A program made the position numbers and the translations under genes. The notes beneath the pieces were generated by a model. The model ran no database searches. It was not told the DNA's origin and worked only from the letters and a program-made list of their open reading frames with translations. Below, in pieces: positions 15,312-30,200 of a stretch of DNA of 46,877 nt; within the stretch, counting starts at the first letter, position 1, and every line of letters begins with the position of its first letter. This DNA comes from Flavobacteriales bacterium (GTDB lineage: Bacteria > Bacteroidota > Bacteroidia > Flavobacteriales > BACL11), in the NCBI GenBank assembly GCA_002711125.1, contig PAHN01000007.1:136987-183863 (forward strand), given 5' to 3'.

Positions 15312-15386
15312 CGGGGTATAGCGTAGCCCGGTTATCGCGCCTGCTTTGGGAGCAGGAGGTCGCAGGTTCGAATCCTGCTACCCCGA
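15312..15386 (+). tRNA. tRNA-Pro(UGG), integration target
   Basis: 75-nt tRNA. The acceptor is CGGGGTA/TACCCCG with discriminator A. Anticodon TGG at 15347-15349 sits in the loop TTTGGGA closed by CCTGC/GCAGG. CCA is not encoded. The last 16 nt plus the next base (AATCCTGCTACCCCGAC, 15371-15387) recur exactly at 22736-22752 and 23093-23109 and with two changes at 23811-23827. The 3' end of this gene is therefore the attachment site of the mobile array downstream. The gene itself appears intact. Confidence 0.95.
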
Positions 15387-15387
15387 C

Positions 15388-15714
15388 ATTTTTCTCCACC
15401 AAAATCGACGATTTTAAGGAGTAACACACTGATTACCAAACCCAAGAACATAAAATTTTAAAATTATTTTAGAAAATAATTTTTAACCCCCTTTTATCAG
15501 ATGATGCCACCAAAAAAAATGTAAAACGGTGCAAATTCTGGTGCAAATTTTGGGAGTAAAAATTTTGTTCTTTTTTTAAGATCAAAAATTTCATCCATTT
15601 ACATCCGTAAGTTCATATTTCTAAAGATATATTGCTTTATATCTTTAAATATAACTTATTGAAAATCAGTTTATTAAATACATTTTGTATTGTAAAATTT
15701 AATAAATTTGTAAG
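15388..15714 (+). promoter_or_regulatory. gene-free left end of element with paired arm-type repeats
   Basis: 327 bp without a gene. It holds two direct GGTGCAAA octamers at 15528-15535 and 15540-15547, 12 bp apart. The same paired arrangement is found in the right terminus at 22668-22687, 23025-23044 and 23743-23762. An ATTTTAGAAAAT-type near-palindrome at about 15464-15480 resembles sequence near the right end (about 22592-22606). By analogy with other tyrosine recombinases these may be arm-binding sites. No protein-coding signal is seen here. Confidence 0.6.
15703..15710 (+). promoter_or_regulatory. TAnnTTTG box for the recombinase, four bases before its ATG
   Basis: TAAATTTG ends four bases before the ATG at 15715. 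With the usual distance from -7 box to start site, transcription would begin at or next to the start codon, so the message may be leaderless. The same geometry recurs at 22786, 23143, and 35328. Confidence 0.5.
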
Positions 15715-16908
15715 ATGAAAAAACAATTATTTGTAAGCTTTTTTGCAAGAAAAGCATTAACCAAGAAAACTGGGATGGTTCCTATATACTGTAAAGTGAG
15801 GTATAACGATACCACAGTCCAGTTTTACACCCAAATAGATGTACTATATATAAATTGGGATTCCAAAAGAACACGCGTTAGGGGAAATAGTAAAAAAGCG
15901 CTGAATTTAGAGTTAGAAACTATACGCGTTGATATAATAGATAAATATAATGCATTAATAAAAACCAATGTCATTATAACAGCCAAGACTGTTCTTGATT
16001 TTTATAAAAATGATACACTTATAATGAATAGTATTATAAATGTGTTTAAACAGCATAATGAAAATATGAAATCGCTTATTGGAATACAATATAGTTATGG
16101 TTCATATAAAAATTATATAACGACAATAAAACATTTAAAAAATTATATAAAAAAAATATATAACGCTAATGATATTTCACTCACTCAAATAAACTATAAT
16201 TTTATATATAATTTTTCACAGTTTATATTATTAAATACTGAATGTACACATAATGGAATGATGAAACATATTCAGCGTTTTAAGAAGATAACTAACTTTT
16301 GTATAAAGAACAATTATATAACAAAAGATCCTTTTATTGGGTTTAAAATTTCATTTAAAAAAACGAATCGTGTTTATATAAATAAAGACGAATTATATAT
16401 ACTAAAAAATATAAAATTAAATAGCAGTTTAAATAAAGTGCGTGATATATTTTTATTTGCGTGTTACACTGGACTTTCATATATAGATTTATATAATTTA
16501 AATATAAAAAACATACAAAAAGGTAATGATGGCCTTAAATGGATTTATATAAAAAGACATAAAACTGATATACCTTCAAATGTTCCTATTTTACCATATG
16601 CCTTATATATTTTAGATATATATAAAAAGCATAAAACTACAAATAGAATTTTTCCAATGATAAGTAACCAAAAAACAAATAAAGCATTAAAGGAAATAGC
16701 GCGTTTATGTAATTTTAATAAAAAATTAACTTTTCATAGTGCAAGACATACGTTTGCAACAACTATTACATTAACTAATGGTGTTCCTATAGAAACTGTT
16801 TCTAAAATGCTTGGGCATAATAATATAAAAACTACTCAAATATATGCTCAAGTTTTAGACTCTAAAACAAGTTCTGATATGCTTATTTTAAGAAATAAAT
16901 TAATTTAA
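15715..16908 (+). CDS. tyrosine recombinase (Bacteroidota integrase family)
   Basis: 397-residue site-specific recombinase. The N-terminal ~100 residues resemble the arm-binding domain of Bacteroidota integrases. A SAM-like core-binding domain spans ~105-215. The catalytic domain has HSARHTF (His341, Arg344), LGH (His368) and nucleophile Tyr377 in TQIYAQ. The first catalytic Arg is replaced by Ser255 in TGLSYIDLYNL; the CTnDOT integrase likewise lacks this Arg. Ile is encoded very often by ATA, unlike the flanking paa and tRNA-linked regions, consistent with horizontal origin. It adjoins attL and probably acts on all copies of the shared terminus. Confidence 0.93.
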   Translation: MKKQLFVSFFARKALTKKTGMVPIYCKVRYNDTTVQFYTQIDVLYINWDSKRTRVRGNSKKALNLELETIRVDIIDKYNALIKTNVIITAKTVLDFYKNDTLIMNSIINVFKQHNENMKSLIGIQYSYGSYKNYITTIKHLKNYIKKIYNANDISLTQINYNFIYNFSQFILLNTECTHNGMMKHIQRFKKITNFCIKNNYITKDPFIGFKISFKKTNRVYINKDELYILKNIKLNSSLNKVRDIFLFACYTGLSYIDLYNLNIKNIQKGNDGLKWIYIKRHKTDIPSNVPILPYALYILDIYKKHKTTNRIFPMISNQKTNKALKEIARLCNFNKKLTFHSARHTFATTITLTNGVPIETVSKMLGHNNIKTTQIYAQVLDSKTSSDMLILRNKLI

Positions 16909-16964
16909 TTATTAACAACATTTATTTTGCAGAATGTATTTATATAATAAAGCTATTAAAATTA

Positions 16965-16972
16965 TAAATTTG
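16965..16972 (+). promoter_or_regulatory. TAnnTTTG box for the C5 methyltransferase, five bases before its ATG
   Basis: TAAATTTG within TATAAATTTG ends five bases before the ATG at 16978, implying a very short or absent 5' leader. The 69-bp spacer after the recombinase stop supports an independent promoter. Confidence 0.5.
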
Positions 16973-16977
16973 CTGAT

Positions 16978-18207
16978 ATGCAAAAAAAAATAAAAGTCGT
17001 TGAATTATTCGCAGGAGTTGGTGGATTTCGTATTGGATTAGAGAAGAGTAATTATAAAATTGTTTGGAGTAACCAATGGGAACCGTCAACAAAGATTCAA
17101 CATGCTTCAATGGTTTATGAAGCACGTTTTGGAAAAGCAAATCACTCAAACGAAGACATCAATGAGATTGTGACTAGAAATGTAGAGGAAATACCAGATC
17201 ATGATTTATTAGTTGGTGGATTCCCTTGTCAGGATTATTCTGTTGCAACTACATTACATAATTCAAAAGGATTAAAAGGTAAAAAAGGAGTTCTTTGGTG
17301 GGCAATTCATAAGATTCTAGAAAACAAAAAGAATAAACCAAAATATTTATTATTAGAAAATGTTGATAGGCTTCTTAAATCACCTGTAGGTCAAAGAGGT
17401 CGTGACTTTGCAGTAATGTTACAGAGTCTAAATAACTTGGGTTATGCAGTTGAATGGAGAGTAATAAATGCAGCAGAATACGGAATGCCACAAAGAAGAA
17501 AAAGAATTTTTTTTCTTGCTTATCATAAATCTTCAAAAGTTTACAAAACAATTAAAAATTGCAATAAAAAAGATTGGCTTATAGAAGAGGGTACTATTGC
17601 TAGGGCTTTCCCAGTTATACAAACAAATAGAATTGAAGAACTTCAGTTAAAGGGAGATTTAGTTAAGCTAACTAAAGAATTCAATAAGGATGGAAAGGTA
17701 TCACCTTTCTTAAATACTGGTTTAATGTTTAAGGCAAAAGTTATAACAATGAAAACTGAGTCTGCATACGAAGGTAAGAAAACTGTATTGGGAGATATTT
17801 TACAGAAAGGAGAAGTGAGTTCTGAGTTCTTTATTGATGAAAATGACAAGCCTAAATGGGAATACTTAAAAGGTGCTAAAAAAGAAAAAAGGAAAACTAA
17901 AAATGGATTTGAATACAATTATACTGAAGGTGCAATGATTTACCCTGATGCATTAGATAATGCTTCAAGAACTATAATTACAGGAGAAGGAGGGAAATCA
18001 CCATCAAGGTTTAAGCATGTAGTTAAGACGGGTAGAGGGCTAAGAAGATTAACACCTATTGAATTAGAAAAGTTAAATCTATTTCCTATAAATCATACTA
18101 AACTTGATAATATTACTGATGCTAAAAGAGCTTTTTTTATGGGGAATGCTTTAGTTGTTGGTATCGTTGAAAAACTTGGTTTTTGTTTGCATGAAAAAAT
18201 AAAGTAA
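16978..18207 (+). CDS. DNA (cytosine-5-)-methyltransferase
   Basis: 409 residues with the C5-methyltransferase motifs in order: I (VELFAGVGGFRIGLE, residues 8-22), IV with catalytic Cys84 (GGFPCQDYSVA), VI (LLENVDRL), VIII (PQRRKRIFF, residues 171-179), a target-recognition region about 190-340, then IX (RRLTPIE) and X (MGNALVVGIVEKLG). It methylates cytosine in an unknown target sequence. No cognate type II endonuclease adjoins it. It is convergent with the DUF262 gene (one base between stops). It may provide self-marking for the neighbouring nuclease, or act as an orphan or anti-restriction enzyme. Confidence 0.92.
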   Translation: MQKKIKVVELFAGVGGFRIGLEKSNYKIVWSNQWEPSTKIQHASMVYEARFGKANHSNEDINEIVTRNVEEIPDHDLLVGGFPCQDYSVATTLHNSKGLKGKKGVLWWAIHKILENKKNKPKYLLLENVDRLLKSPVGQRGRDFAVMLQSLNNLGYAVEWRVINAAEYGMPQRRKRIFFLAYHKSSKVYKTIKNCNKKDWLIEEGTIARAFPVIQTNRIEELQLKGDLVKLTKEFNKDGKVSPFLNTGLMFKAKVITMKTESAYEGKKTVLGDILQKGEVSSEFFIDENDKPKWEYLKGAKKEKRKTKNGFEYNYTEGAMIYPDALDNASRTIITGEGGKSPSRFKHVVKTGRGLRRLTPIELEKLNLFPINHTKLDNITDAKRAFFMGNALVVGIVEKLGFCLHEKIK

Positions 18208-18208
18208 T

Positions 18209-20284
18209 TTATATGTCCTCCCATGTATTATAAAATTTTCCAAATATTCCGTCAACTATTCTTAAAGATCTTGTAATTATTTCCTTGTAGGTGAAATCTT
18301 CAAATTGGTTTAAACCTATCTCGCTATTCTCATTTTTTGGTAATTTTATAATGTTACTATCGTTTTGGTAGTTGTCTTTCTTGAACTCGAAGTTTTTATT
18401 TGATGCTTTAATATTACTAGCTGCGTGTAATACCCATTTATTCCCAATAAACTGTAATAAACTATCTTTTTGTTTATGATTAGGTGCATCAATTAATTCT
18501 AGATTTTCTTTCTGTAATATTTCGATTTTTATATTTTCGAAGTTAATATTTTTAAATTGACTTTTTTCTAGTTCATTTTCAATATATGAAGTAATTTCTT
18601 CTTTTGTAAAATATTTGTCTTCCCAATAATTCTTCCAACTACTTGGGAACATATGTTCAAGTTCATTTTCTTTATATTGTTTTTGATTATAAGATTGTAA
18701 TGTCTCGTGCTCATTTAAATAACAATATAAATAGATAATAAATTTTGACTCTTCATTGTCTTTTGGTTGTAAAGCATCATTAATTAAATTTTTTTTAATC
18801 AGATAATCTGTATCTTTTCTATCATTAAAGTATTTTAAAAGATTCCAATCTTTGTTTAAATCTTTTATTATTTTCAGCATATTATTTCTAATAATATTTG
18901 ATTTATTACTAATAAGAGTTTCTTCTATATAAACAATTCTTATCAGGCACCATATCTCTTGTATGATTTGAAAATTAGCTTGAAGGTTTCTCATATTGTG
19001 AGATTCTAATATAATTTTAAATAATAAGAATCTGCTATTACTTGAGATCTTCTGAGCATAAAATAAAACTTGTAATAATGATTCTACTTTCTTTTTCTGA
19101 TTATTTTGATTAAACAAATTAGTAAATGTATTATTCTCGTGCAATCTATTATTTAGAACATTAATATAAAAGTCAAGTATTTTGCCAACAATATCTAGAA
19201 AATTAAATATCCCATCATTGCCTTTTTCTTTAAAATCCTGTTCAAATAAATCCATCATATCTTCTTCAGAAGATATGCTTTCAGCATTTAATGTGTTAAA
19301 TAGAACTTTAAAGAAATCTTCATCATTTTTAAAGAATTTTTTATCAATACAAAAATCTAGGTTTTTATAAATTTCTTTCCAGAGTAGCCTAATTTTTGTC
19401 CTTTTTATTTCATCTTCACAAGTAATTAGACATTTATATCTTAATTTATCTGTTAATGTTAAGCTTTTTCCTCGATTATTTAGAGATTCAAATATTTGAA
19501 TAGAATCATCAATACTTTGCAAAGGAACTTCAATAATCCAACATTTCTTTAGTATTGCATCCATAAATTTTTCAAAAGCGATTAACCCTTCAATCAACTG
19601 CGGTTTTATAAATTTCTCACTAAGGTATTTTTTTATAATTTTTCTTGCTATCTTTAGGTTGTTTGCTGTTTTTGATCCCTTTTTCCATTCTTCTTCAGCC
19701 TTATTCTCAAATTCATATTCTTTCTTTTCATAGTCTTCCAAAGTCTCTATTTGATCAAATTCACATATGTATGAGTGAAATAATTGTTTAATAGATTCCT
19801 CTGTTATAAACTTTGGTTCTGGAACATCATTATTGCCGTAATCAATAACACATTTTTTAGATTCATCTATTCTTCTTGTAAGCTTATTTTTTAATTTTGT
19901 TTCTGATGATAATTCAAGATCTTGTATTCTTTTAAGAAGTACAGAAGCTTCTCTGAAAATAATTTGTATTGTAGTCACTCTTTGTTGTCCATCTAAAAGT
20001 TGTGACTCAATATCATTCGGAGTTAATTTTGTAGTAAATATTGGGCCTAAGAACCATGATTCCCTATCTCCTTCAGCGATTTTTCTTATATCATTTAATA
20101 AATCCAGAATATGCTGTTCACTCCAAGAGTATGGCCTCTGATAATCGGGAATCTTTCTAACATTATGTTTTTTGAAAAAATCATAAATAGAACTAGGTTC
20201 AATTAAAAATTGGACTCTATCTCTTTCAGCAGTTAGACCAGTTAGTATTGATTGATAAACAGGTTGATTGTTTTTATTTTGCAT
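18209..20284 (-). CDS. DUF262-DUF1524 protein, GmrSD-like (type IV restriction family)
   Basis: 691 residues. The N-terminal DUF262 (ParB/sulfiredoxin-like NTPase) has DYQRPYSW at 47-54, FLGPIF and LLDGQQRVTTIQ at 97-107. The C-terminal DUF1524 is an HNH-like nuclease with ELEHMFPSSW (His544) and IGNKWVLHAASNIKASN. All key residues are present. GmrSD-type enzymes cut modified phage DNA, and related DUF262 proteins occur in several defence systems. It is probably first translated after the small unknown gene (6 bp apart) in a leftward three-gene group, beside a C5 methyltransferase. Activity against particular DNA modifications is not predictable from sequence. Confidence 0.88.
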   Translation of the reverse strand: MQNKNNQPVYQSILTGLTAERDRVQFLIEPSSIYDFFKKHNVRKIPDYQRPYSWSEQHILDLLNDIRKIAEGDRESWFLGPIFTTKLTPNDIESQLLDGQQRVTTIQIIFREASVLLKRIQDLELSSETKLKNKLTRRIDESKKCVIDYGNNDVPEPKFITEESIKQLFHSYICEFDQIETLEDYEKKEYEFENKAEEEWKKGSKTANNLKIARKIIKKYLSEKFIKPQLIEGLIAFEKFMDAILKKCWIIEVPLQSIDDSIQIFESLNNRGKSLTLTDKLRYKCLITCEDEIKRTKIRLLWKEIYKNLDFCIDKKFFKNDEDFFKVLFNTLNAESISSEEDMMDLFEQDFKEKGNDGIFNFLDIVGKILDFYINVLNNRLHENNTFTNLFNQNNQKKKVESLLQVLFYAQKISSNSRFLLFKIILESHNMRNLQANFQIIQEIWCLIRIVYIEETLISNKSNIIRNNMLKIIKDLNKDWNLLKYFNDRKDTDYLIKKNLINDALQPKDNEESKFIIYLYCYLNEHETLQSYNQKQYKENELEHMFPSSWKNYWEDKYFTKEEITSYIENELEKSQFKNINFENIKIEILQKENLELIDAPNHKQKDSLLQFIGNKWVLHAASNIKASNKNFEFKKDNYQNDSNIIKLPKNENSEIGLNQFEDFTYKEIITRSLRIVDGIFGKFYNTWEDI

Positions 20285-20289
20285 AATTA

Positions 20290-20814
20290 TTATAGTTTAT
20301 ATAATTTAGAAGTTATATTTGTTACTTGCTCAAAATCATACCCTTGAAAAGCGGTGATTTCAATAAAAAATATATTGGTTAAATTATTTTTTGAATTAAA
20401 ATATTTAAAGAATAAAGATAAGTTTTTTCTAATATCTGAAATATCTGCAAAACTTTTATCAACTAAATTGCTTTTATTGCCAAAATCTCTTTGAAGTATC
20501 ATGTAAAATAGACTTTTATCGTTTTGATTATACAAATTCTCAATAAAAACTTTAATAAAAGATCTTCTGTTTTCAGTCATTTTAATTAACACATTCTTGT
20601 CTTCTTTCGAAAAAATATTTTTTATAATTTTGTTTTGTCTAATCTCCTTTCCAAGACTCCTAATTCCAATTCTTCCTTCTTGCTTTCTTTTATATTCTGC
20701 AATAATCTCAATTTGAATTTTTTCTAGTTTTATTTTTATAGACTCCTCTAAATCTTCTGATTCTATTTTCTGGATACTGGAATCTTTTGTTAATGTGTAT
20801 AGATTATATTTCAT
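20290..20814 (-). CDS. unknown protein between two defence-type genes
   Basis: 174 residues, not recognised. It is Lys- and Ile-rich, mostly helical by composition, with no signal peptide or clear motif. The segment GRIGIRSLGKEIRQNKIIKNIF is basic and may bind nucleic acid. It lies 17 bp downstream of the methyltransferase-like/AlbA gene and 5 bp upstream of the DUF262 gene, so it is very likely co-transcribed and part of the same system. Confidence 0.75.
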   Translation of the reverse strand: MKYNLYTLTKDSSIQKIESEDLEESIKIKLEKIQIEIIAEYKRKQEGRIGIRSLGKEIRQNKIIKNIFSKEDKNVLIKMTENRRSFIKVFIENLYNQNDKSLFYMILQRDFGNKSNLVDKSFADISDIRKNLSLFFKYFNSKNNLTNIFFIEITAFQGYDFEQVTNITSKLYKL

Positions 20815-20831
20815 ATTTTGAAATTTGTATT

Positions 20832-22550
20832 TTATTTATCTAAAGATTCTCTGAATTTCTTTTTTCTTTGTTCTACATATGCTATTAGACTACTAGCTTG
20901 AAGTTGAATTGCACTTGGATTAGTTCTTATGTAGTATTCTTCGCCATTTCTAGTTTTAAGATATATAGGTTCTTTTGATTCCTTACATTCAATAAGCAAA
21001 ACTAATTTAGAGTCAATTTCTACTAATTCATAATTGATTAGACTAAAATAAGCGGTACCTATCTTATCCTTTATTAGATTGTTAAGGTGTAATAAATATC
21101 TATCTTTATTATTAAATTTATCTTTTTCGACTCCTATAATTTTTCCATTGTCATCCACACCAATTAATAGTGTTCCTCCATCTGAGTTGAAAAATGCAAC
21201 AATATTCTTTAATACTGACTTTTCTATTTCAGGGTCAGCTTTTTTTGTGTGAATATTTAATATTAGAGTTTCTTTGAATTCAATTTTTTTGTTTTCCCCT
21301 TCAGTTATCAATCTTCTTATTTCATCAGCTTTGGTTAACTTGACAAACGGTAAATGTAATTTCTCCCATTTAAGTAATACTTCATTTTTTGTATTTGGAT
21401 TTAAGCTAAGCTCATTTTTTAGTGATTGAATTGAATCTTCAAGTTTTGTCAACTTTTCATGCGCATCAATAAAGCTATCCTGTTCATTTATTGATGGTAT
21501 TAGAACTAAAGATGATAATAAATCTTCCTGATATATTCTTTCTAGCGTTAGGCCTTTTTTTAGGCTTTTCAGTATTTCTACTCCTAACTCCGACATATAG
21601 AAGAACGAAAGGAACTTTGAGGAAACAATTTGAGTATTAATAATTAATTGAATATAATTTTGATGTTTTTCAATTTCATCGTATTTATATTGTACAGATA
21701 TTTTGCCAATTGATTTAATATAGATAGCATCTTTTATATCCTCAAATTTTCCTCGTGATATTATGTTGATTCCATCTTTTAAAATGATTTCTGAGACTTT
21801 TAATTCTTTATAATTTTTATAATATTTTCGTATCACCTCAAATTTTCGTTGAAAAATATAATGTGAAAATGATATAAACTTTAATCTTTCTTCCCAGAAT
21901 CCATTAATAAAATCTTCGTCTGTTCTTAATTGATAGTTTGATATAATATTTTGATAATTATTTGTTTTGTTATCATAATCAACTTCTATCTGTGCAATAA
22001 ACTGCTTATCAGTTATTTTTTTTTGAAAACCTAATAAGTAAGTTTTAATTCCAGTTTGAGGATTAATTCTTTCAGGTATATTTAGAATAATATTGCAATA
22101 GTATCCATGTTCTCTTAAATCCTTTAATAAATTAACCCCTCTGTTATGCATTATTGTTGTAGGTAGAATTACTAATAATGTCCCATTATCAGTCATATTC
22201 TGAAGTAGTGATATTAAGATGTTCCAGCTTCTAAATACTTTTTTTAATTTATCGAAATGGTATGGTTCTTTTTTTCCAAGATTTAATGGAAGATCAGCAA
22301 CAATTAAATCGTTATTTGAGAATTCTAGATTATCAAAATTAGAAACAGAGCTATTATGTTTGAAGTTTAGAAGATCCCCGCATACCCACCCTTGAACATT
22401 TCTATAGAAATCATCTTTAGGTCTTTCTGACGACTGTTTACTTGTTTCTTCAGTATAATTACTACTAATTAATAAGGTGTTTTTTGCTTTGAATATACTT
22501 GAGAAATTCTTTATAAACTTTGTGAATTCTTTTCTTCTGTCATTTATCAT
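20832..22550 (-). CDS. N6-methyltransferase-like + specificity-like + AlbA_2 fusion protein
   Basis: 572 residues. Residues ~45-190 resemble the back half of a type I/IIG adenine methyltransferase: VADLPLNLGKKEPYHF at the catalytic-motif position, then NGTLLVILPTTIMHNRGVNLLKDLRE. The catalytic box reads DLPL instead of (N/D)PP(Y/F), and no SAM-binding motif I precedes it, so it is probably inactive. The middle (~225-400) looks like a type I specificity region ending in a coiled coil (KLTKLEDSIQSLKNEL). The C-terminus (~408-572) is an AlbA_2 (Schlafen-type) domain with IEFKETL and GGTLLIGVDDNGKIIGV. It is first in the leftward defence operon. Confidence 0.7.
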   Translation of the reverse strand: MINDRRKEFTKFIKNFSSIFKAKNTLLISSNYTEETSKQSSERPKDDFYRNVQGWVCGDLLNFKHNSSVSNFDNLEFSNNDLIVADLPLNLGKKEPYHFDKLKKVFRSWNILISLLQNMTDNGTLLVILPTTIMHNRGVNLLKDLREHGYYCNIILNIPERINPQTGIKTYLLGFQKKITDKQFIAQIEVDYDNKTNNYQNIISNYQLRTDEDFINGFWEERLKFISFSHYIFQRKFEVIRKYYKNYKELKVSEIILKDGINIISRGKFEDIKDAIYIKSIGKISVQYKYDEIEKHQNYIQLIINTQIVSSKFLSFFYMSELGVEILKSLKKGLTLERIYQEDLLSSLVLIPSINEQDSFIDAHEKLTKLEDSIQSLKNELSLNPNTKNEVLLKWEKLHLPFVKLTKADEIRRLITEGENKKIEFKETLILNIHTKKADPEIEKSVLKNIVAFFNSDGGTLLIGVDDNGKIIGVEKDKFNNKDRYLLHLNNLIKDKIGTAYFSLINYELVEIDSKLVLLIECKESKEPIYLKTRNGEEYYIRTNPSAIQLQASSLIAYVEQRKKKFRESLDK

Positions 22551-22645
22551 TATGCTAAAATAATATTAATTTCCAGATAATTATTGTAAATATTTATTTT
22601 AGAAAATAACTCATTTCTCTGAAAATAAAATAAAATTTCTTAATT

Positions 22646-22752
22646 TTGTTTTAGTAGATTGATTAGCGGTGCAAAAAGCGGAGCAATTTTTAGTTTGAAA
22701 GCTTGTTGTAATCATGTAAATAGGTGTTGGGTTGTAATCCTGCTACCCCGAC
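22646..22752 (+). repeat. shared terminus, copy A (right end of large element, attR)
   Basis: 107-bp block, 102/107 identical to copy B by hand count. It contains the octamer pair GGTGCAAA/GGAGCAAT (22668-22687, 12-bp period) and ends in the tRNA-Pro 3' core at 22736-22752. The 31 bp at its end match the tRNA 3' end (15357-15387) at 26 positions, with the mismatches outside the core. Confidence 0.9.
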
Positions 22753-22785
22753 TTTTTTCTTTTATATTTTCCTGTTAATTTTTTG

Positions 22786-22793
22786 TAAGTTTG
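22786..22793 (+). promoter_or_regulatory. TAnnTTTG box of cassette unit 1
   Basis: TAAGTTTG ends four bases before the ATG at 22798, the same geometry as for the recombinase. The unit thus carries its own promoter and probably yields a leaderless message. Confidence 0.5.
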
Positions 22794-22797
22794 CTTT

Positions 22798-22950
22798 ATG
22801 AGAAAACTAAATTATATATCAATAGCATTATTATGTGTTGGGGGATTTTTTAAGCATAATTCATATCCATACGCTAATGTTCTTGTTTCAATTGGATTCG
22901 CTGCAGTAGCTATCACGTTTTTAGCTATGGCTATTTCTAAAGAAAAATAA
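22798..22950 (+). CDS. small two-helix membrane protein (50 aa) in cassette unit 1
   Basis: 50 codons from ATG to TAA. It begins MRKLNYISIALLCVGGFF. There are two hydrophobic segments (about residues 6-17 and 27-44) separated by a short polar turn (KHNSYPYAN), and a charged C-terminus SKEK. It reads as an integral membrane hairpin of unknown function. A consensus promoter box sits four bases upstream, and the shared right terminus follows directly, so it is the only gene of this 357-bp unit. It could be a toxin-like or superinfection peptide, but nothing in the sequence proves this. Confidence 0.65.
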   Translation: MRKLNYISIALLCVGGFFKHNSYPYANVLVSIGFAAVAITFLAMAISKEK

Positions 22951-23002
22951 AATTATTTTTAAAAGTAATTTCTAATCAGAAAATCCAATTAATTTTTTAA
23001 GT

Positions 23003-23109
23003 TTGTTTTAGTAGATTGATTAGCGGTGCAAAAAGCGGAGCAACTTTTAGTTTGAAAGATTGCTGTAATCATGTAAAAAGGTGTTAGGTTGTAATCCTGC
23101 TACCCCGAC
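23003..23109 (+). repeat. shared terminus, copy B
   Basis: 107 bp. The octamer pair GGTGCAAA/GGAGCAAC is at 23025-23044. The tRNA-Pro core at 23093-23109 is identical to that of the tRNA. Similarity to copy C continues about 50 bp upstream, back to the stop codon of each unit's gene, and includes an inverted repeat of the type TTTCT-AATC-AGAAA (22970-22982). Confidence 0.9.
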
Positions 23110-23154
23110 TTTTTTCTCTTCATCTTTTCTATAAATTTTCTGTATTATTGTAGT

Positions 23155-23670
23155 ATGAAAAAACTATTACTAATAAATACTATGAAAAAAGCTTTATTTT
23201 TTATTTCTATCTTAATAAGTTTTAATTGTTACTCACAGGGTAATATAGGTTGTTGGGCAGGTTTTACTTATACCCAAAATGGCTCTACAACTATATTTAC
23301 AGACAATTCTTTTGTTGCTCCTGCGAATAGTTGGGCTAATGATTACTCGTTGAGTTGGTTCTGGGACTTTGGTGATGGTAATACATCAAATTTACAAAAT
23401 CCAACGCATAATTATAGTAATGGAACTTATATACCGTGTCTTACATTGATAATGTTTGATTCAACAGTTATGAGTACTTGTACTTCTTCTACATGTGATA
23501 CTATAATAAGTGGAAATACTACTTCTTTAATTGATTACATGCAAAATAATATTAATAAAAAGATAATTTATACTGTAGATATTTTTGGTAGAGAAACAAA
23601 AAAAAGCAACCAGCTACTTTTTTACATCTATTCTGACGGAACAGTAGAAAAGAAGATAATTATTGAATAA
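23155..23670 (+). CDS. secreted PKD-domain protein with T9SS-like sorting tail
   Basis: 171 residues. A signal peptide (the start may instead be the second Met, MKKALFFISILISFNCYSQG, at 23182) is followed by one PKD domain with the hallmark WFWDFGDGNTSNLQNPTHNY. The C-terminal ~35-residue sorting tail contains VDIFGRE and LFYIYSDGTVEKKIIIE. PKD domains bind surfaces or polysaccharides; the tail suggests export by the type IX system and attachment to the cell surface. It is the only gene of cassette unit 2, and similar tails occur in four more proteins of this window. Confidence 0.75.
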   Translation: MKKLLLINTMKKALFFISILISFNCYSQGNIGCWAGFTYTQNGSTTIFTDNSFVAPANSWANDYSLSWFWDFGDGNTSNLQNPTHNYSNGTYIPCLTLIMFDSTVMSTCTSSTCDTIISGNTTSLIDYMQNNINKKIIYTVDIFGRETKKSNQLLFYIYSDGTVEKKIIIE

Positions 23671-23720
23671 ATTATTTTAAAAAGTATTTTCTGATTAGAA
23701 AATCGAAATAATTCCTAATT

Positions 23721-23827
23721 TTTTTTTAGTAGATTGGTTAGCGGTGTAAAAAGTGGTGTAAATTTTAGTTTTAAAGCTTACTATAATCATGTAAATAGAG
23801 TATAGGTTGTAATCCTGCTAACCCAAC
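23721..23827 (+). repeat. shared terminus, copy C (most diverged)
   Basis: 107 bp, about 89/107 identical to copy B by hand count. The octamer pair is a perfect direct repeat here (GGTGTAAA twice, 23743-23762). The tRNA-Pro core at 23811-23827 has two changes. It is the copy farthest from tRNA-Pro and the most decayed. Confidence 0.85.
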
Positions 23828-23840
23828 TTTTCTCTCTTAT

Positions 23841-23857
23841 ATTATGCTTAGCATAAT
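23841..23857 (+). repeat. perfect palindrome upstream of the LRR gene
   Basis: ATTATGCT-T-AGCATAAT, 8-bp arms around one base, 30 bp upstream of the LRR gene ATG. A related but weaker palindrome (TATGC-TTG-GCATA, 26251-26263) lies upstream of the lipoprotein gene at 26310. Possible operator; function unknown. Confidence 0.4.
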
Positions 23858-23887
23858 TATTCCTTTTTATTTCCTTTTATTTGTTTT

Positions 23888-25081
23888 ATGAAAAAAATAA
23901 TATTTATATTATGTTTTATACCTCTTTTTGGGTTTGGACAACAAACTTATATTCCAGATGATAATTTTGAATCTTACTTAGAATCTAATGGTATGGGAAA
24001 TGGAATTCCTAATGATGATTATGTTTTAAGTTCTAATATTTATATGGTAACTAATTTAGATGTTAGTAATCAAAATATTTCTGATCTAACTGGAATAGAG
24101 AGTTTTTACTCATTAGAATATCTATACTGTTATTCAAATCAATTAATTAGTATTGATATAACTCAGAATATTTTTTTAGAAGAATTAGCTTGTAACGATA
24201 ATAATCTTTCAAGTTTGGATATAACTCAGAATATATTTTTAAATTACCTTGATTGTAAAAATAATAATCTTTCAAGTCTTGATGTAACTCAGAATGATTC
24301 ATTAAGTGCTCTGTATTGTTCTAACAATCAATTAACAACTTTAGATGTTTCCAACAATATTTTTTTAGAAGGGTTAAATTGCTCAAATAATCTTTTATCT
24401 TCTATAGATGTTAGTCAAAATATTTGGCTGCATTGGTTCCCATGTCATGACAATTTTTTAACTACAATTGATGTAAGTAATAATTTTAATCTCCACACCT
24501 TTATGTGTTATAATAATTTATTAACTTCTTTAGATTTGACAAATAATTTTTATTTAGAATATCTAGGATGTTCTGGAAATCAAATTAGTTCAATAAATCT
24601 TCCTTTGTTTTCACAGATAATTGATTTAGTATGCCATGATAATAATTTAACTAGTTTAGATTTGTCTAATCATAGTGAATTATCTCTATTAGTTTGTTAC
24701 GACAATAATTTAGAGATATTAGATTTAAGTTCAAATATAAATTTAACATCATTACGGTGTGAGAATAATCAACTAACCCTCCTTGATGTATCTAATGGAA
24801 ATAATACAAATTTTACTCATTTCTCTGTTCAAAATAATTCTATGCTTACTTGTATTAATGTTGATGTCCCTAACTATTCATTTTTAAATTGGACAAGTAT
24901 AGATCCTCAACATTATTTTAGCGATAACTGTCCCCCAGCTTCAATAGAAAATCATAACACAATAAAAGAAACTTTTAAAGTTATAGACATTTTTGGAAGG
25001 GAGGTTAACGAAAAACGAAATATATTACTATTTTACATATATGATGATGGAGCATTAGAAAAGAGAATAATTGTTGAATAA
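23888..25081 (+). CDS. secreted leucine-rich-repeat protein with Cys ladder and T9SS-like tail
   Basis: 397 residues. A signal peptide (MKKIIFILCFIPLFGFGQ) is followed by about 12 LRRs of 21 residues (~50-340) of the type LxxLxCxxNxLxxLDVSxN. Eleven consecutive repeats have Cys at the same position, as in the cysteine ladder of internalin-J-like LRRs. The sorting tail carries IDIFGREV and LFYIYDDGALEKRIIVE. It is probably a surface protein for binding. It follows copy C of the shared terminus directly, so it may belong to the array, but no right terminus is found after it. TTTATTTG ends four bases before its ATG. Confidence 0.85.
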   Translation: MKKIIFILCFIPLFGFGQQTYIPDDNFESYLESNGMGNGIPNDDYVLSSNIYMVTNLDVSNQNISDLTGIESFYSLEYLYCYSNQLISIDITQNIFLEELACNDNNLSSLDITQNIFLNYLDCKNNNLSSLDVTQNDSLSALYCSNNQLTTLDVSNNIFLEGLNCSNNLLSSIDVSQNIWLHWFPCHDNFLTTIDVSNNFNLHTFMCYNNLLTSLDLTNNFYLEYLGCSGNQISSINLPLFSQIIDLVCHDNNLTSLDLSNHSELSLLVCYDNNLEILDLSSNINLTSLRCENNQLTLLDVSNGNNTNFTHFSVQNNSMLTCINVDVPNYSFLNWTSIDPQHYFSDNCPPASIENHNTIKETFKVIDIFGREVNEKRNILLFYIYDDGALEKRIIVE

Positions 25082-28505: not shown

Positions 28506-30200
28506 ATGTATAGGCTTTTTTTCTTTTTTCTAATATTTGTTCAGTACTCATCTTTGTCACAAGAATTTACTGTTAAACCTTATTTGCAAAATGCAGAACC
28601 AAATAGCATGGTTGTAATGTGGGAGTATAGTAAGTTTGATTCTTCTTTTTTAGAATGGGGCGAATCAACAGATTTAGGAAATACTGTTTCAGTAACATAT
28701 GAATTTACAAATTATCCGGCCTGTATTTACACGGCTAATATCTTTGGTTTGGAAGCTAATAAACAATATTTTTATAGAGTAGTTTCAGGTAATTCGGTTT
28801 CTAATATTTATGATTTTAAAACTCCTGCTATCAGCTCACAAGAGGAACCTATAAATATTGTTGTGATGAGTGATATGCAAAGGGATGGAAATAATCCTAA
28901 TAAGTTTCATCAGATTGTACATGATGGAATATTTGAATATATACATACTCATTATGACACTAGTATAAGTGAAGGTCTTAATATGCTAATGATTCCTGGT
29001 GATTTAGTTAATACTGGTACTGATTATTATCATTGGAAAGATCAGTTTTTTGGTCCTGCTTACCCATTGTTCTCTTCAGTGCCATTTTATCCTGTTCTAG
29101 GTAATCATGAAATGAATTCTGATTTTTTCTTTCAGTATTTTGATTTGCCAAAAAATGGTACTCAAGGTTTTGAAGAACATTGGTGGTACAAGGATAATTC
29201 TAATGTTAGAATAATTGGCTTAAATTCTAATTCGGGTTATAGAATACAAAAGCAACTTGATTGGCTTGATAGTGTACTTTATTTAACGTCAATTGATAAT
29301 TCTATTGATTTTGTTTTTGCTCAATTACATCACCCTCATAAATCGGAACAATGGACTCCGGGAAATACTGACTTTACTGGTGAAATAGTGAAATTACTTG
29401 AGGGATTTACAAGTAGTAGCGGTAAGCCATCTGTGCATTTTTATGGTCATACACATGGATATTCTAGAGGTCAATCCAGAGATCATACTCATCTTATGGT
29501 TAATGTTGCTACATCTGGAGGATATATAGACTATTGGGGTGAATGGCCTCAGCAGGATTATTTAGAATATAGTGTAAGTCAGGACGAATGGGGTTATGTT
29601 TTTTTAGAAATTGAGGCAGGTAATAATCCTCAATTTACTTTAAGAAGATTAAGTCTTGGAGATGATAACATTACTAAAAATAATAGTGTTGAAGATAGCG
29701 TTGTAATACGTTTTTATAATAATTCTCCCAATACTCCAATTGGAATTTTTCCTCTTCCAAATGATACAATAAGTTCAAATACTATGTATTTAGTTGCTGA
29801 TAATTTTTTTGATATTGACGGAGATTTGCATGGTGCTTCTCATTGGCAAATTAGTAATTATTGTAATGATTTTTCTAACCTTATTTTTGATAGTTGGAAA
29901 CAGTATGAAAATTGGTATTTTGATATAAATACGCAAGCTAATGATAACTTAATTGATGAAGAAATAGATTACTTAGAGCCTAATAGTCGTTATTGTTGGA
30001 GAGTTAGATTTAGAGATAGAAGCCTTGCATGGTCTGAATGGTCTTTGCCTATACCTTTTTATACTGACGCCTCTATTGAATCAAATAAAATTGTCAAAAT
30101 TGTTGATATTTTAGGAAGGGATACTAATTTAAAAAACAATACTATTATTTTTTATATTTACGAAAACGGTTCAGTAGAGAAAAAAATATTGTTAGATTAA
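28506..30200 (+). CDS. secreted purple-acid-phosphatase-like metallophosphoesterase with T9SS-like tail
   Basis: 564 residues. After the signal peptide, an FN3-like domain (~20-100) starts with FTVKPYLQNAEPNSMVVMWE, as in purple acid phosphatases. The metallophosphoesterase domain (~115-380) has MSDMQ, IPGDLVNTG, LGNHEM, LHHPH and FYGHTHGYSRG, so all five metal-binding blocks are present. A second FN3-like region (~400-520) precedes the sorting tail (VDILGRD, IFYIYENGSVEKKILLD). It probably releases phosphate from organic esters at the cell surface. Confidence 0.87.
   Translation: MYRLFFFFLIFVQYSSLSQEFTVKPYLQNAEPNSMVVMWEYSKFDSSFLEWGESTDLGNTVSVTYEFTNYPACIYTANIFGLEANKQYFYRVVSGNSVSNIYDFKTPAISSQEEPINIVVMSDMQRDGNNPNKFHQIVHDGIFEYIHTHYDTSISEGLNMLMIPGDLVNTGTDYYHWKDQFFGPAYPLFSSVPFYPVLGNHEMNSDFFFQYFDLPKNGTQGFEEHWWYKDNSNVRIIGLNSNSGYRIQKQLDWLDSVLYLTSIDNSIDFVFAQLHHPHKSEQWTPGNTDFTGEIVKLLEGFTSSSGKPSVHFYGHTHGYSRGQSRDHTHLMVNVATSGGYIDYWGEWPQQDYLEYSVSQDEWGYVFLEIEAGNNPQFTLRRLSLGDDNITKNNSVEDSVVIRFYNNSPNTPIGIFPLPNDTISSNTMYLVADNFFDIDGDLHGASHWQISNYCNDFSNLIFDSWKQYENWYFDINTQANDNLIDEEIDYLEPNSRYCWRVRFRDRSLAWSEWSLPIPFYTDASIESNKIVKIVDILGRDTNLKNNTIIFYIYENGSVEKKILLD

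Follow-up and report, generated by a model that had tools for sequence, protein, structure and literature searches.

A tRNA-Pro island that links a C5 cytosine methyltransferase with a DUF262-HNH nuclease and a 174-aa partner: a candidate restriction-modification-like unit with an optional Schlafen-type fusion protein

DndI and SspE are mark-sensing nickases of the DUF262-DUF1524 type, and most studied enzymes of the GmrSD family cleave DNA that contains modified cytosine. DndI, which acts in the IscS-DndBCDE-DndI system as SspE does in SspABCD-SspE, is held off self DNA by a DNA mark of the host; the host phosphorothioate raises its ATPase activity and frees the enzyme from self DNA, and when the mark is missing the cell itself is damaged (PMC11662687). 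The GmrSD-family enzymes BrxU and TgvAB target phage DNA with modified cytosine, and TgvAB, whose genes lie within a type I restriction-modification (R-M) cluster, requires both of its proteins and works against glucosylated phages (PMC11411939). Three further groups are relevant to the locus described here: the Sau3AI, BglII and BstYI type II R-M systems, the PrrC/EcoprrI guard of type I R-M (PMC12707154), and the Schlafen and SAMD9 tRNases with AlbA_2 domains, including the bacterial Schlafens of a preprint cited in PMC12839542. In Schlafen13, mutation of E205, E210 or D248 diminishes or abolishes RNA cleavage (PMC5862951).

The locus lies in a window of 46,877 nucleotides (the whole stretch of DNA that was analysed) from the 1.69-Mb genome of a small-genome flavobacterium (contig C4 of G000). 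A tRNA-Ser gene and a tRNA-Pro gene are followed by a tyrosine integrase gene and then by four cargo genes, all with intact reading frames (Table 1). The approximate limits of the island were set by the end of the tRNA-Pro gene, which recurs as an exact 17-bp repeat (0.01 matches expected by chance). An earlier note, made from the sequence alone, had described four cargo genes on a mobile element, among them a full C5 methyltransferase and a DUF262 nuclease, and this description holds: the frames are intact with Pfam matches for both enzymes, and the integrase stands beside a tRNA-Pro gene with exact att cores. The three leftward genes are as tightly spaced as the note had it, running on the minus strand in the order fusion, 174-aa gene, DUF262 gene with gaps of 17 bp and 5 bp. 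The methyltransferase gene is convergent with the DUF262 gene, and their stop codons are 1 bp apart.

Table 1. Features of the tRNA-Pro island and its integration site (positions in the window)
Feature	Position	Strand	Basis or remark
tRNA-Pro (TGG)	15312-15387	+	ARAGORN; integration site; last 17 bases (15371-15387) form the left att core
Island	15388-22752		7.4 kb, from the 3' end of tRNA-Pro to the right att core; repeat family D3, spacing 7365
Tyrosine integrase	15715-16908	+	Pfam: Arm-DNA-bind_5, SAM_5, Phage_integrase
C5 cytosine methyltransferase	16978-18207	+	Pfam PF00145, E=6.7e-64
DUF262-HNH (GmrSD-like) nuclease	18209-20284	-	Pfam GmrSD_N, E=7.3e-29
174-aa protein	20290-20814	-	Paired with the DUF262 nuclease gene; its copy in L173 is 41% identical
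572-aa fusion	20832-22550	-	Pfam SLFN_AlbA_2, E=3.5e-22; HsdS-like stretch 278-380, E=7.7e-8
Right att core	22736-22752	+	Repeats the 3' end of tRNA-Pro exactly (pattern search)

Searches of PADLOC and NCBIfam returned no named system that matches the island, in agreement with the earlier note, which knew of none with this composition. The full gene sets of HEC-06, 'Orf5', BREX, DISARM and the other PADLOC systems are absent, and only single genes match (DUF262, methyltransferase and HsdS-like stretches). Scans of viral contigs with the methyltransferase, the DUF262 protein, the 174-aa alignment and the fusion found no relatives, and a two-row DUF262 alignment found distant DUF262 genes only.

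The nuclease resembles DndI and SspE in its apparent domain order, in its QR and DGQQR motifs, in a putative HNH motif, and in a tyrosine at the position of DndI Y25. These two enzymes are also its closest solved structures in a PDB search (E=5e-13 for DndI); the sequence similarity lies mostly in the DUF262 half. The N-terminal motifs QR, DGQQR and FxSLN (FxxxN) are found at positions 47, 98 and 265 of the protein, and the putative DUF1524/HNH part, in which GmrSD_C is matched only at E=0.014 and thus below the Pfam cut-off, has EHMFP (EHxxP) at 543 and IGN at 613. The sensing tyrosine Y25 of DndI aligns with the tyrosine of YQR in the island protein, which is weak evidence for mark sensing because this tyrosine is common among DUF262 proteins. 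As with DndI and SspE, the nuclease is coupled to a gene for the marking of host DNA, here putatively the C5 methyltransferase, whereas the island has neither the Dnd nor the Ssp marking genes (dndBCDE, sspABCD) and has the 174-aa partner in addition. The likeness to GmrSD, BrxU and TgvAB consists of GmrSD_N and EHxxP and, for TgvAB, of a two-part build and an association with R-M. However, the partner protein on the island has no DUF262 domain, and the module includes a cytosine methyltransferase, which would place m5C in a cell whose nuclease is of a class that attacks modified cytosine in many cases.

In the C5 methyltransferase, motifs I, IV (PCQ), VI (ENV), VIII, IX and X are all readable. 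Its plasmid-borne relatives (about 39-47% identity) often adjoin endonucleases of the Sau3AI/MutH or BglII/BstYI families, and because of these pairings it is placed in the Sau3AI/BglII-associated (GATC-core) group, with a GATC-core target likely at the level of the family. Of all 4-base palindromes, GATC falls furthest below expectation in the window (75 seen, 105 expected), a deficit judged too weak to count. The enzyme shares this methyltransferase group with the type II systems (45-58% identity, and 86% to the methyltransferase of sibling island L180), but DUF262, 174-aa and fusion genes occupy the place of a type II endonuclease, which L180 does possess. The proposal of the earlier note that C5 methylation marks self is plausible. 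Another C5 methyltransferase gene is present in the same genome (G000:C16:22224-23168, E=1.8e-99).

The 174-aa protein, unrecognised in the earlier note, has no confident family in Pfam, PADLOC or NCBIfam searches. BrxA (E=0.018) and GldB (E=0.021) were considered as identities and set aside, as the matches are weak and the one homologue matches nothing. A single-sequence model (pLDDT 40) is worthless and no fold was read from it. No match was found on plasmids or in a sample of 395 genomes of the phylum, and a search over 246 genomes of the order found one other genome, G762 (E=2e-32). This genome is from another family, and its locus (L173) adjoins a tRNA-Pro (GGG) gene and has an integrase 41% identical to that of the window. 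The gene order there is integrase, 174-aa homologue (41%), DUF262 gene (48%) and convergent C5 methyltransferase gene (58%), and the 174-aa gene overlaps the DUF262 start by 4 bp. The QR, DGQQR, FxSLN, EHxxP and GN..N..K motifs are common to both DUF262 proteins. Neither on the window island nor in L173 is a recognisable type II endonuclease found beside the methyltransferase; L173 also has no fusion gene, and it continues with genes for a CBS-domain protein and an unassigned protein.

The DUF262, C5 methyltransferase and 174-aa genes are thus genuinely linked, and because the trio recurs without the fusion, the unit of inheritance is these three genes, to which the fusion is an addition. This bears on the suggestion of the earlier note that all four genes may make up a new combination: three of them are found together in L173, the four together nowhere else in the data searched, and the conserved module does not include the fusion. 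Only two genomes are known to have the trio, and dN/dS values of about 0.15-0.45 show purifying selection on all three genes. The ratio for the methyltransferase is about 0.15 against the 86%-identical L180 copy; against L173 it is about 0.2 for the DUF262 gene and about 0.45 for the 174-aa gene, and in both of these comparisons dS is close to saturation or beyond it. The island is probably an anti-virus module (methyltransferase, DUF262 nuclease and 174-aa protein) plus an optional fusion.

The integrase has copies of 70-95% identity on sibling islands, several of them next to tRNA-Pro, and a sample of 52 genomes of the family yielded 13 others with islands of the same integrase family. On L176 and L179 the cargo is type I R-M together with DUF262. 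The differing R-M cargo of the siblings marks the integration site as a small hot spot for restriction cargo. At tRNA-Pro, the sibling islands L176, L177, L179 and L180 have either type I R-M with DUF262 or BglII-type R-M with DUF262. Across the integrase and methyltransferase genes, the DNA of island L180 is collinear with that of the window (79% nucleotide identity; 86% for the methyltransferase protein), as it is again at the right end. Between the collinear parts, L180 has a BglII-family endonuclease gene (PF09195) and an unrelated DUF262 gene (26%), and the window island has the DUF262, 174-aa and fusion genes at the same position. On the alignment, this is a natural swap of the putative restriction arm behind nearly the same methyltransferase, and it amounts to a natural experiment in which two different arms stand behind near-identical enzymes. 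The recognition region is the part of the methyltransferase most diverged from L180 (26-28 of 40 positions identical per block), so its target may differ from that of L180.

The very different cargo of islands with the same integrase (L175, L176, L177, L179 and L180) is what would be seen if one integrase had gathered independent selfish or defensive genes with no mechanism common to the four, and the fusion does usually travel without the other three genes. However, three of the four genes recur in another family with order and orientation kept, and the 174-aa and DUF262 genes of L173 overlap translationally, which makes mere stacking of cargo unlikely. A second possibility is a type IV activity: the DUF262 and 174-aa proteins would form a modification-dependent nuclease, similar to BrxU and two-part like TgvAB, directed against phages with modified cytosine, while the methyltransferase would be the orphan of a Sau3AI/BglII-type system whose endonuclease was replaced, and the fusion would act independently. 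DUF262 genes do stand beside complete R-M systems on L176, L179 and L180 and in type I loci, and TgvAB offers a precedent. Against this, an intact methyltransferase lies tail-to-tail with DUF262 in two islands that have different integrases and no recognisable endonuclease, an arrangement that an unlinked orphan is not expected to keep. The type IV explanation is possible, with considerable doubt attached.

The reading tentatively preferred here, which falls somewhat short of an even chance, is that the island encodes an R-M-like unit in which host m5C gates a nuclease of the DndI/SspE kind, together with an optional tRNase guard. The C5 methyltransferase would mark host DNA, most likely at GATC-containing sites, and the DUF262-HNH nuclease and the 174-aa protein would form the restriction arm. 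The NTPase domain of DUF262 may read host m5C in place of phosphorothioate, as DndI and SspE read their mark, so that marked DNA is spared and unmarked phage DNA is nicked or cut by the nuclease. Gating by a self mark is favoured over the type IV model because the link to the methyltransferase is conserved without an endonuclease, though both models are live. The preferred reading is further consistent with the recurrence of the trio in L173, in the same order with a convergent methyltransferase and a different integrase, with purifying selection on all three genes, with the exchange of the arm in L180, and with DndI and SspE as the nearest solved relatives. It is opposed by several points: the trio comes from two genomes only; m5C could attract the nuclease instead of repelling it, given what most studied GmrSD-family enzymes cut; the DUF262 genes beside complete R-M on three sibling islands allow an unlinked type IV role; the methyltransferase target may have changed; and the YQR tyrosine is widespread in its family. 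If the reading is true, ordinary cytosine methylation can serve DUF262 nucleases as a mark of self, which would join classical R-M with the phosphorothioate systems.

The fusion consists of a gamma-class (M.TaqI/HsdM-like) N6-methyltransferase, an HsdS-type recognition region and an SLFN/SAMD9-type AlbA_2 domain. As the earlier note had read it, the methyltransferase part has DLPL at motif IV and no recognisable motif I, and the HsdS-like region and AlbA_2 domain are kept. When 84,980 species genomes were searched with a profile, 23 full-length relatives of this short form (L053-L075) were found in many bacterial and archaeal phyla, the nearest in the tree being a Saprospiraceae protein (L053, support 99/97). 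NPPF/Y is absent from all 24 full-length short-form rows of the tree, the island fusion included, so the dead state of the methyltransferase is no peculiarity of this locus. In L076 and L093, long forms have a full HsdM_N/N6_Mtase with NPPF kept; since the short forms have lost it, they probably descend from an HsdM-HsdS-AlbA_2 protein in which catalysis was lost long ago. In the flanks examined, type I R-M genes accompany 8 of the 23 relatives, and the rest are mostly solitary, although several contigs are short. The fusion gene lies inside type I R-M operons in L067, L069, L070, L071, L074 and L075, in L069 in the order HsdM-fusion-HsdS-DUF262-HsdR. The examined flanks of the 23 relatives contain no C5 methyltransferase and no 174-aa gene, and most are without DUF262. 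In L056 (7092-11458), a relative of the fusion adjoins a 908-aa STAND protein of the NB-ARC/NACHT type, with an integrase nearby.

In an AlphaFold2 model of the fusion (24 rows, pLDDT 80), residues 2-355 match M.TaqI and HsdM (Z about 15; VIA-align Z 15.7 over 294 residues for M.TaqI), and residues 404-567 match the AlbA_2/tRNase domain of SAMD9 (VIA-align Z 13.4 and 12.9 over 154-155 residues). E419, E424 and D467 align with E205, E210 and D248 of Schlafen13 and are invariant in the short forms. Because this triad is kept and the domain matches the SAMD9 tRNase domain, AlbA_2 looks like an effector itself, and from sequence and model it is probably tRNA-cutting. The fusion differs from the Schlafen and SAMD9 proteins in having one AlbA_2 lobe, where Schlafens have two, and in being joined to a dead methyltransferase with a recognition region. 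The single lobe counts against the RNase role, as does the fact that the E-E-D triad is part of the signature of the AlbA_2 family.

The earlier note proposed that the fusion could sense DNA and direct the DUF262 nuclease, by recruiting or aiming it, while C5 methylation marks self. The operon is tight with the fusion first, both genes occur in the type I R-M loci L069, L076 and L093, and proteins with AlbA_2 fused directly to DUF262 exist, which gives partial support to a link between the two. However, the trio of L173 has no fusion, most relatives have flanks without DUF262, and an AlbA_2 domain with its nuclease triad need not be an adaptor. Such a role is improbable, and the features of the fusion fit an RNase tethered to DNA better than a DUF262 guide. 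In the preferred reading it would be a separable module: its methyltransferase-plus-recognition body, unable to methylate, would act as a sensor bound to DNA or to a complex and would tether an RNase of the Schlafen/SAMD9 type, which would cleave tRNA once the first line fails, like PrrC beside type I R-M. This is consistent with the M.TaqI and SAMD9 folds, the Schlafen13 triad and the residence in type I R-M operons. Like PrrC, the fusion is an RNase-type gene inside such operons, but its nuclease fold is unrelated and its presumed sensor mimics a methyltransferase with a specificity region. The island has no hsd genes, and an N6_Mtase search of the genome gave one weak match, in a 287-aa frame. 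The possibility that the fusion guards a resident type I system here was dropped, as no HsdM was found in the genome. The full proposal of two-layer immunity, with an m5C-gated DUF262 nickase backed by a Schlafen tRNase tethered to DNA recognition on a dead methyltransferase, is rather unlikely to be right in every part. The fusion family itself suggests a way in which bacteria and archaea couple Schlafen-type RNases to the recognition of DNA, and it bears on the origin and triggering of antiviral Schlafen/SAMD9 tRNases. AlbA_2 domains fused to the C terminus of HsdR or to DUF262 nucleases are found in at least L096, L102, L107, L112, L113, L115, L116, L126, L129 and L130, and in L088, L091, L032 and L050, suggesting that restriction enzymes are generally coupled to Schlafen-type domains.

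Around and beyond the right end of the island, a 176-bp repeat occurs in three copies (22634-22809, 22991-23166 and 23709-23884), with att-like cores; each copy either overlaps a small ORF at its start (22798, 23155 and 23888) or ends just upstream of it. These repeats may be cassettes in tandem, or what is left of earlier insertions into this tRNA-Pro site. Three ORFs (23155-23670, 23888-25081 and 28506-30200) have a common C-terminal tail, DI(F/L)GR(E/D)...FYIY.(D/N)G..EK(K/R)I, which is similar to a sorting domain of type IX secretion, and one of the three encodes an LRR-like repeat protein.
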